From Deltaproteobacteria bacterium (lineage in GTDB: Bacteria; Desulfobacterota; Binatia; Binatales; Binataceae): DNA of 64,000 bases. Positions 31,954 to 33,651 of the stretch are shown here, in pieces (positions within the stretch are counted from its first letter, which is position 1; each line of letters starts with the position of its first letter). The notes beneath the pieces are model-generated. The model did no database searches. It was given only the letters and a program-made list of their open reading frames with translations, and was not told the origin of the DNA. The position numbers and the translations under genes were made by a program. The stretch covers positions 288,620 through 352,619 of the forward strand of contig JAKBMB010000028.1 of assembly GCA_021831785.1 (NCBI GenBank), read 5' to 3'.

Positions 31954-33651
31954 ATGACTAGCAAGATCGTATTAGGCCTTGTCGTAGCGCTATTCCTAGC
32001 GGCCTTCGCGTCCGACGCCGCGCATGCCCAAACGTGCGGATCCACCGATTACACCTACACCTTCACCAATGATTGCGCATACCCGGTCTGGATCGCCCAG
32101 TACAATGGCAACGAGACCTCTGGACACCAGCCGCAGGGCGACAACTGGGCGCTCGCCAACTCTTGCCAGACCAGCGCCGACTGCCTCAGCGGCAGCCAAT
32201 GTAGCGACGGGCAGTGCAGCTGTACAAGCAGTACCGACTGCCCCGGGGGCGCTAGCTGCAACAGCGGCCTGTGCAGTACTACCGACGTCTTCTGCATGCC
32301 GCAGGCGTGGACCTCGGGACGGTTCTGGCCGCGCACCGGATGCAGCGGCAGCGGGAGTACGCTGAACTGCGCTACCGGACAATGCGGAGGTAGTGGCGAT
32401 GGCGCGCTTGATTGCACTGCGGCCAAGGCGACCGGCGACAACCCCTCCACGCTGTTTGAGGTCACCAGCATCACGGGCGGCACCGCCAACTACGACGTAA
32501 GCATGGTTGACGGCGGTAACGTCTCGCTGCGCGCCGAGCCGATCGATGCGAATCCGGGTACCGGATGCATTGCGGGCGGATGCGTGAGCGACCTCAACCG
32601 AACCTGCCCAGCCGATTTGCAGATCACTACGCCGGCCGGCGACGCGCCCACCGCGATTCCGTGCGGGAGCGGCAAGTATTGCCCCGAGGGTACGTGCGTC
32701 AGCAACGCCGGCACTCCGACCTGCGTCATCGGATGCGTCGCGCCATGCGACCAGTGCCAGCAAAGCTCACCCCCCGCCGGCCTGAAGTGCACGGATGAGA
32801 TCGGGAGCTCGTACACGGCGTGCGATAAATCCAGCCAACAGGCTACGTACGAGGATCTCTATTGCACGAAGAGTTTTCATGACGGTAACTCGATGGCATC
32901 GGGGAACCAGGGCACTCCGACCTGTTTCAGTAACCTTGATTGTCCTCCCGGCAGCATATGCTACGGCATCGGCAAGAATCCGGCAGCGCCCGCGGCAGGG
33001 GTGTGCATCAATCCCAGGAGTCCGGCGAACAACGGCACCTGCTTTCAGAACTTGACCACCGGCCCTTGCAGCGCGACCAATGTCGGCGAGCCCTGCGGCG
33101 GATACATGGAATTTTTCAGCGACGCCCTGGGCTATACCTGCCAGGCGGTCAAGTACAAGTACAAAGGCGTTGAGAACACCACATACGCGTGCCTCCCTCC
33201 GACGACCACGGGTCTGGGCACCTGTGAAGTCGCAACCCCGCCCAAAGCCGGGACCTGCGGCATCGGATCCCCGCCGCCGACGCAGGCGCCGCTATACACC
33301 GGCACGGGCTCACCCGCCAATGCGGATTTCGTCACCGCGGCGACACAGGCCGGCGGCGGCAGTGAGCCCTACTACGCGATCTTCAAGCGGGCCTGCCCAC
33401 GCGCCTACAGCTGGAGCTACGACGACGCATCGGGCGGCCTCGCATGCACCGGCGGCCTCACCGGTTTCAATGTCGTTTTCTGTCCCGAGAACGCGCGAAG
33501 GCCGCTTGGAAATCTTGGCTTTGGCCTAGAGAATCGCATTGGAAATCTTGGCTTTGGCTTACTGGGAAATCTTGGTTTTGGCCTAGAGAACCTCGAAGGC
33601 CTCGGTAGCGGCGACAACCCGTATCGGGATTTCGATAGTCACGATTTTTGA
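31954..33651 (+). CDS. Secreted thaumatin-like protein with cysteine-rich inserts
   Basis: A signal peptide (residues 1-26, ending AHAQ) precedes a thaumatin-family fold: FTNDCAYPVWIAQ (37-49), SGRFWPRTGC (121-130), CATGQCGG and ALDC (139-154), LFEVTSITGGTANYDVSMVDG (167-187) and the family end YYAIFKRACPRAYSWSYDD...FNVVFCP (473-511). Two Cys-rich insertions break the fold, at about 70-110 and 240-430; the first has EGF/Dickkopf-like CxxxxDC spacing. After the fold, GNLGFGL occurs three times (518-544). Thaumatin proteins are mostly from plants and fungi, where many bind or cut beta-glucans. An extracellular glucan-related or structural role is an inference. A GGGGGG stretch serves as the ribosome binding site. 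Confidence 0.85.
   Translation: MTSKIVLGLVVALFLAAFASDAAHAQTCGSTDYTYTFTNDCAYPVWIAQYNGNETSGHQPQGDNWALANSCQTSADCLSGSQCSDGQCSCTSSTDCPGGASCNSGLCSTTDVFCMPQAWTSGRFWPRTGCSGSGSTLNCATGQCGGSGDGALDCTAAKATGDNPSTLFEVTSITGGTANYDVSMVDGGNVSLRAEPIDANPGTGCIAGGCVSDLNRTCPADLQITTPAGDAPTAIPCGSGKYCPEGTCVSNAGTPTCVIGCVAPCDQCQQSSPPAGLKCTDEIGSSYTACDKSSQQATYEDLYCTKSFHDGNSMASGNQGTPTCFSNLDCPPGSICYGIGKNPAAPAAGVCINPRSPANNGTCFQNLTTGPCSATNVGEPCGGYMEFFSDALGYTCQAVKYKYKGVENTTYACLPPTTTGLGTCEVATPPKAGTCGIGSPPPTQAPLYTGTGSPANADFVTAATQAGGGSEPYYAIFKRACPRAYSWSYDDASGGLACTGGLTGFNVVFCPENARRPLGNLGFGLENRIGNLGFGLLGNLGFGLENLEGLGSGDNPYRDFDSHDF

Follow-up and report, generated by a model that had tools for sequence, protein, structure and literature searches.

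In the literature, thaumatin-like proteins (TLPs) are ascribed to plants, fungi and animals, and the bacterial ones have barely been studied: among 5.39 million papers of the PMC literature, none contains "bacterial thaumatin" and none pairs "thaumatin-like" with Binatota. The plant PR-5 proteins have a compact domain of ~200 amino acids with the signature G-x-[GF]-x-C-x-T-[GA]-D-C.

The acidic cleft of TLPs, whose residues are denoted REDDD, has been linked to antifungal or glycan-lytic activity (PMC3048497). The GH64 beta-1,3-glucanases and the TLPs form one superfamily, and the SUN domains of fungi, which have a thaumatin-like fold, have been proposed to bind beta-1,3-glucan (PMC13251364). 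Thaumatin-domain proteins are already known from bacteria, namely from Amycolatopsis rifamycinica (solved structure, PDB 7p22), from Legionella (PMC4256840), and from a Streptomyces plasmid ("thaumatin family protein" WP_331728241.1, compact, 265 amino acids). The 565-residue protein analysed here, from a soil-type bacterium, is therefore an elaborated variant of a known bacterial type.

Gene organization and predicted export signal

The gene lies in a 64,000-nucleotide stretch of DNA, referred to as the window, and comprises the following features.

31954..33651, + strand: gene of the thaumatin-like protein (565 amino acids, 42 Cys); ORF list, Pfam, phmmer against PDB, and a syntenic orthologue 63-65% identical
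31954..32031, + strand: predicted Sec signal peptide (residues 1-26, ending DAAHA-Q, without a lipobox); read from the sequence, and at 35% identity the segment least conserved in the orthologue
32032..32163, + strand: N-terminal strands of the thaumatin core (residues 27-70), containing C41; AlphaFold2 model with structural alignment, and joint retention or loss of C41 and C510
32164..32283, + strand: Cys-rich insert 1 (residues 71-110, 8 Cys, two successive four-Cys units of ~19 residues); loop-length comparison, pLDDT ~90
32284..32622, + strand: middle part of the thaumatin core (residues 111-223) with cleft residues R123, E169, D181 and D186; Pfam, phmmer, alignment
32623..33318, + strand: enlarged domain II (residues 224-455, 232 residues, 21 Cys); loop-length comparison, no PDB match when taken alone
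33319..33489, + strand: C-terminal part of the thaumatin core (residues 456-512) with D490/D491, C481, C498 and C510; phmmer, alignment, and at 80% identity the segment most conserved in the orthologue
33490..33648, + strand: disordered Gly/Leu/Phe tail (residues 513-565) with three GNLGFGL copies, ending RDFDSHDF; pLDDT ~30, low GC3

The N terminus, judged by eye, reads as a Sec-type signal, MTSKIVLGLVVALFLAAFASDAAHA-Q, and the protein is very probably exported. The genome encodes seven matches to DsbA-family proteins, and a search of it for VKOR found none, suggesting that disulfide formation in the envelope is plausible.

The thaumatin fold

A Pfam-A scan of the protein matched the Thaumatin family (PF00314) in two stretches, with an E value of 5.3e-26 and a score of 92 bits (cut-off 27.4), and the same family was matched by all 25 of the aligned family members; an NCBIfam scan of the protein gave no match. 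Against the PDB sequences, phmmer matched proteins from apple, tomato (NP24) and cherry, as well as osmotin and PR-5d (best E 2e-17). These matches fell in two separate parts, at residues ~115-243 and ~472-511, indicating that an intact thaumatin domain is split by a long internal insert. The profile of the 25 members reached E values down to 1e-43 against cherry Pru av 2.

The AlphaFold2 model, built with 25 sequences, had a mean pLDDT of 75 and a pTM of 0.79. The pLDDT was near 90 in most blocks of the core and insert 1, lower in parts of domain II, and ~30 at residues 517-565. Thaumatin-like proteins ranked at the top of the Foldseek search with this model (E 1e-10), and VIA-align superimposed 212 residues on apple Mal d 2 (3zs3) with a Z of 17.6. 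As modelled, the protein almost certainly adopts the thaumatin fold. These results bear out the proposal of the earlier note that the first and last parts match the thaumatin/PR-5 fold, and the structure prediction run as a check on it contains the thaumatin sandwich. That note had also described two large Cys-rich insertions as breaking the fold. Both are present, with 8 and 21 Cys, but the second enlarges domain II of the thaumatin domain and does not break the fold.

The signature region of the protein reads LNCATGQC, with TGQ where TGD is usual. The presence of this sequence instead of the PR-5 signature, together with the far longer domain II, indicates a protein of the thaumatin superfamily and not a PR-5 protein.

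Compared with the eukaryotic TLPs and PR-5 proteins (Mal d 2 3zs3, Pru av 2 2ahn, osmotin 1pcv, and NP24 2i0w), the model shares the core fold (Z 15-18), the REDDD residues and 11/16 canonical Cys positions, at ~30-34% structure-aligned identity, whereas those proteins are not bacterial, have ~200-220 amino acids, and lack counterparts of insert 1 (40 residues), of the enlarged domain II (232 residues) and of the tail. The Amycolatopsis protein (Z 15.3) is likewise compact and without Cys-rich inserts, and its aligned part has no C9-type Cys. The GH64 beta-1,3-glucanases (3gd0, 5h9x, and 7vtk; Z 10-12) are alike in fold only, with ~14% identity over the aligned part. The fungal SUN domain proteins (9t47, Z 6.8) are proposed to use the thaumatin-like fold for beta-1,3-glucan binding (PMC13251364), but have a fused Sushi-like domain instead of an extended domain II, and no REDDD.

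The acidic cleft and a probable disulfide

By sequence alignment, the REDDD set is complete in the protein (R123, E169, D181, D186, and D491), and also in its orthologue from the same genus. Across the 25 sequences, E169, D490, D491, and G187 are invariant and D181 is nearly so, while R123 is kept in 15 and D186 in 7. The full set occurs in 4/25 relatives, suggesting that the members of the family may not all bind the same glycan.

Eleven of the 16 canonical thaumatin Cys positions could be mapped by alignment, and the other five fall in the enlarged domain II, a region that is not alignable. C41 and C510, which correspond to C9 and C204 of thaumatin, were scored by script in 21 sequences: 12 have both and 9 have neither. 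Reading of the sequences (relatives are given by their locus numbers) found both in the window protein, L027 and L044, and found C41 in L034, L038, L044, and L064. The joint absence occurs at three separate places on the core tree: L028-L033 with L010, L039/L053/L055, and L040. The retention or loss of both residues together supports real disulfide pairing over chance Cys spacing. With the invariant residues, it shows that the likeness among the homologues exceeds Cys spacing.

The Cys-rich loops and the tail

Loop lengths were taken as the distances between core motifs. In the window protein and its nearest relatives (L027 and L030), loop 1 has 75-77 residues, compared to 38-43 in the compact members L040 and L071. 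The sister clade (L010, L028, L029, L032, and L033) has a short loop 1 (37-40 residues) but a loop 2 of 72-85 residues, compared to 5-12 in most others. The domain II loop has 250-283 residues in both the window clade and the sister clade, compared to 107-128 in compact members. Both Cys-rich elaborations of the window protein are thus common to relatives. Since the two clades fall within one supported clade of the core tree (96/96), and their inserts lie in loop 1 and loop 2, respectively, similar Cys-rich inserts were acquired at different sites.

When domain II was modelled alone, the pLDDT was 66, and no match was found by Foldseek at E<=0.001 or by VIA-align at Z 2 or more, which does not imply a new fold; the best Foldseek match was a Draxin fragment (E 1.2). 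The EGF/Dickkopf-like Cys clusters seen in the earlier reading did not hold up: a search for an EGF, Dickkopf or EB origin of the inserts gave a single sub-threshold hint, an EB match (E=0.0089, 16.5 bits vs a cut-off of 24.3) in one of the 25 members; the Pfam-A scan of the protein gave an EB module below the cut-off. A duplication of a 19-residue unit in insert 1 was not borne out (9/19 identical, p=0.067 with the Cys positions fixed). A search of the genome with the insert 1 sequence returned its own gene only.

The C-terminal repeat tail noticed earlier contains three GNLGFGL copies, located at 33505, 33538, and 33562 in the DNA. Positions 33505-33590, which encode the GNLGFGL copies of the tail, are near-identical 29-nt repeats of unusually low GC3. 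The GC3 of the tail is 0.47 vs ~0.77. The tail was seen only in the two genomes of the source genus, and a search across the genome gave one chance-level match (E=0.6).

Distribution, evolution and genomic site

The gene is real and conserved. The syntenic orthologue (63-65% identical) was found in a MAG of the same genus, deposited as Deltaproteobacteria bacterium FK3.bin99, and another 14 genomes of the class have homologues. Between the protein and its orthologue, dS was 0.81, close to the 0.83-0.86 of the flanking genes, whereas dN was 0.23 vs 0.04-0.05, giving a dN/dS of ~0.28 vs 0.05. The ratio was ~0.16-0.34 in the inserts and ~0.25 in the core, indicating that both are under purifying selection. 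The protein therefore changes faster than its flanking genes while remaining under purifying selection.

Thaumatin domains were detected in 21/41 genomes of the organism's family and in 5/107 in the rest of the class (26/148 in total). An even sample of the phylum yielded 9 more genomes outside the class with such a domain (6 above the cut-off), among roughly 370-380, and the 14 control genomes yielded none. The suggestion that such proteins are rare in bacteria, examined inside the source phylum, thus applies there, but not to the organism's own family, half of which has them. Some relatives carry several copies. In a tree on 121 columns, plant and compact bacterial sequences were intermixed with weak support.

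The neighbours, assigned by Pfam and NCBIfam, are CoA transferase subunits, an F420-type PPOX oxidoreductase, a bactofilin and ATP synthase subunit b, and the gene lies, in the source genus, within a conserved PPOX-bactofilin-ATP synthase block. Among 28 other family genomes in which the bactofilin locus was read, 26 have PPOX so close upstream of bactofilin (<=1.5 kb) that the gene would not fit between them, and none has a thaumatin-like protein at that locus. The adjacency of PPOX and bactofilin elsewhere in the family indicates insertion or relocation of the gene into this conserved block in the source genus. A recent foreign origin was rejected, as the gene has native GC and codon usage outside the tail, and phage carriage was rejected, as no relative was found in phages or viral contigs; a compact relative is carried on one Streptomyces plasmid. 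Outside the genus, no operon partner is conserved except between sister genomes, and no conserved neighbour pointing to a pathway was found. A search for a sigma-70 promoter found none.

The setting of the relatives

A lipobox and Thr/Pro-rich linkers occur in several relatives. Of the sister clade, L010, L028, L029, and L032 are apparent lipoproteins with such a linker ahead of the thaumatin domain. Other relatives have ASH/Cep192-like C-terminal domains. In L074:202-1827, an inverse-autotransporter beta-domain (PF11924, E=9e-7) is joined to a C-terminal thaumatin domain, and L076, L077, and L082 resemble it at the N terminus and also end in a thaumatin domain. These surface-displayed thaumatin domains belong to another family of the phylum.

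Two further loci were observed. L031:8535-10385 (genome G007) is a relative broken by two in-frame stops (TGA and TAG) in its N-terminal third; the copy may be decaying, or the break may be an assembly artefact. L040:6205-6780, on the - strand, encodes a 192-residue, 16-Cys predicted exported protein without a Pfam match, adjoining the compact thaumatin-like protein in genome G045.

Proposed function

The protein is best explained as a disulfide-rich protein of the thaumatin superfamily that is exported by the Sec route; up to 21 disulfides would form as it folds, either periplasmically or extracellularly. Its acidic cleft may bind a beta-linked polysaccharide, at best guess the beta-1,3-glucan of fungi, algae, plants or a biofilm matrix, and the enlarged domain II and insert 1 would reshape the cleft walls and set the specificity, while the core stays constant.

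The literature on cleft activity (PMC3048497) and the superfamily shared with GH64 (PMC13251364) favour extracellular glycan binding, with beta-glucan the most likely ligand. The complete REDDD set and the invariant E169 and D490/D491 count for glycan binding by the cleft, and the lipobox and linker relatives and the inverse-autotransporter fusion count for an extracellular setting; the extracellular location suggested earlier is thus supported. The fold, the purifying selection on inserts and core, the placing of inserts in loop 1 or loop 2 depending on the clade, and the DsbA-family proteins also speak for this explanation. By homology, glycan binding through the cleft is a good possibility that falls just short of probable. 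Lytic activity is unlikely, and we think that binding is likelier than catalysis. GH64 was not matched in the Pfam scan of the protein. Counting against the glycan-binding reading are the full REDDD set in only 4/25 relatives, the TGQ in place of TGD, and the failure to find a conserved neighbour that points to a pathway. No glucan-degrading partner was seen either: the genome encodes no GH16, and a GH64 search of it, run without a positive control, gave no match.

The main rival is a surface adhesin or envelope-structure protein, in which the thaumatin domain would serve only as rigid support, with protein-protein contacts in the cell envelope or matrix made by the Cys-rich loops and the Gly/Leu/Phe tail. 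The far greater variation of the loops than of the core among relatives, the low complexity of the tail, the anchoring of relatives as lipoproteins or through a fused inverse-autotransporter barrel, and the failure to find catalytic partners are all consistent with it. However, such a role would not explain the five intact cleft residues or the invariance of E169 and D490/D491 across the family, and it is possible but clearly less likely than glycan binding.

A secreted antifungal or glucan-lytic factor, directed against soil fungi or algae as plant PR-5 proteins and osmotin are, would fit the fold shared with osmotin and zeamatin, the complete REDDD set, the faster evolution of the protein relative to its flanks, its patchy presence and its genus-specific site. 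Any surface protein fits the same pattern, however, and the large domain II alters the surface that the plant proteins use, making this role improbable. An inhibitor of other organisms' enzymes, comparable to the wheat thaumatin-like xylanase inhibitor TLXI, is very unlikely: the fold is shared (Z 12.0) and long variable loops are typical of inhibitors, but TLXI is small and without much of domain II, the opposite of the present protein. Eukaryotic contamination, an assembly artefact or mere Cys spacing, which the incomplete assembly (34 contigs) and a family best known from plants might suggest, is refuted by the same-genus MAG, where the orthologue has PPOX, bactofilin and ATP synthase as neighbours, by the native GC3, by the homologues in 14 other genomes of the class, and by the confirmed fold.

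Returning to glycan binding as the favoured reading, the thaumatin core might more broadly be a binding scaffold on which exchangeable disulfide-rich loop modules, whose position differs between lineages (loop 1 in this clade, loop 2 in the sister clade), set the specificity and give rise to a bacterial repertoire of extracellular glycan receptors; we offer this as a speculation that is rather unlikely to hold. A family concentrated in one bacterial group, whose core stays constant while its disulfide-rich loops vary, provides a natural comparison for what the acidic cleft binds, and might be a source of stable glycan binders.
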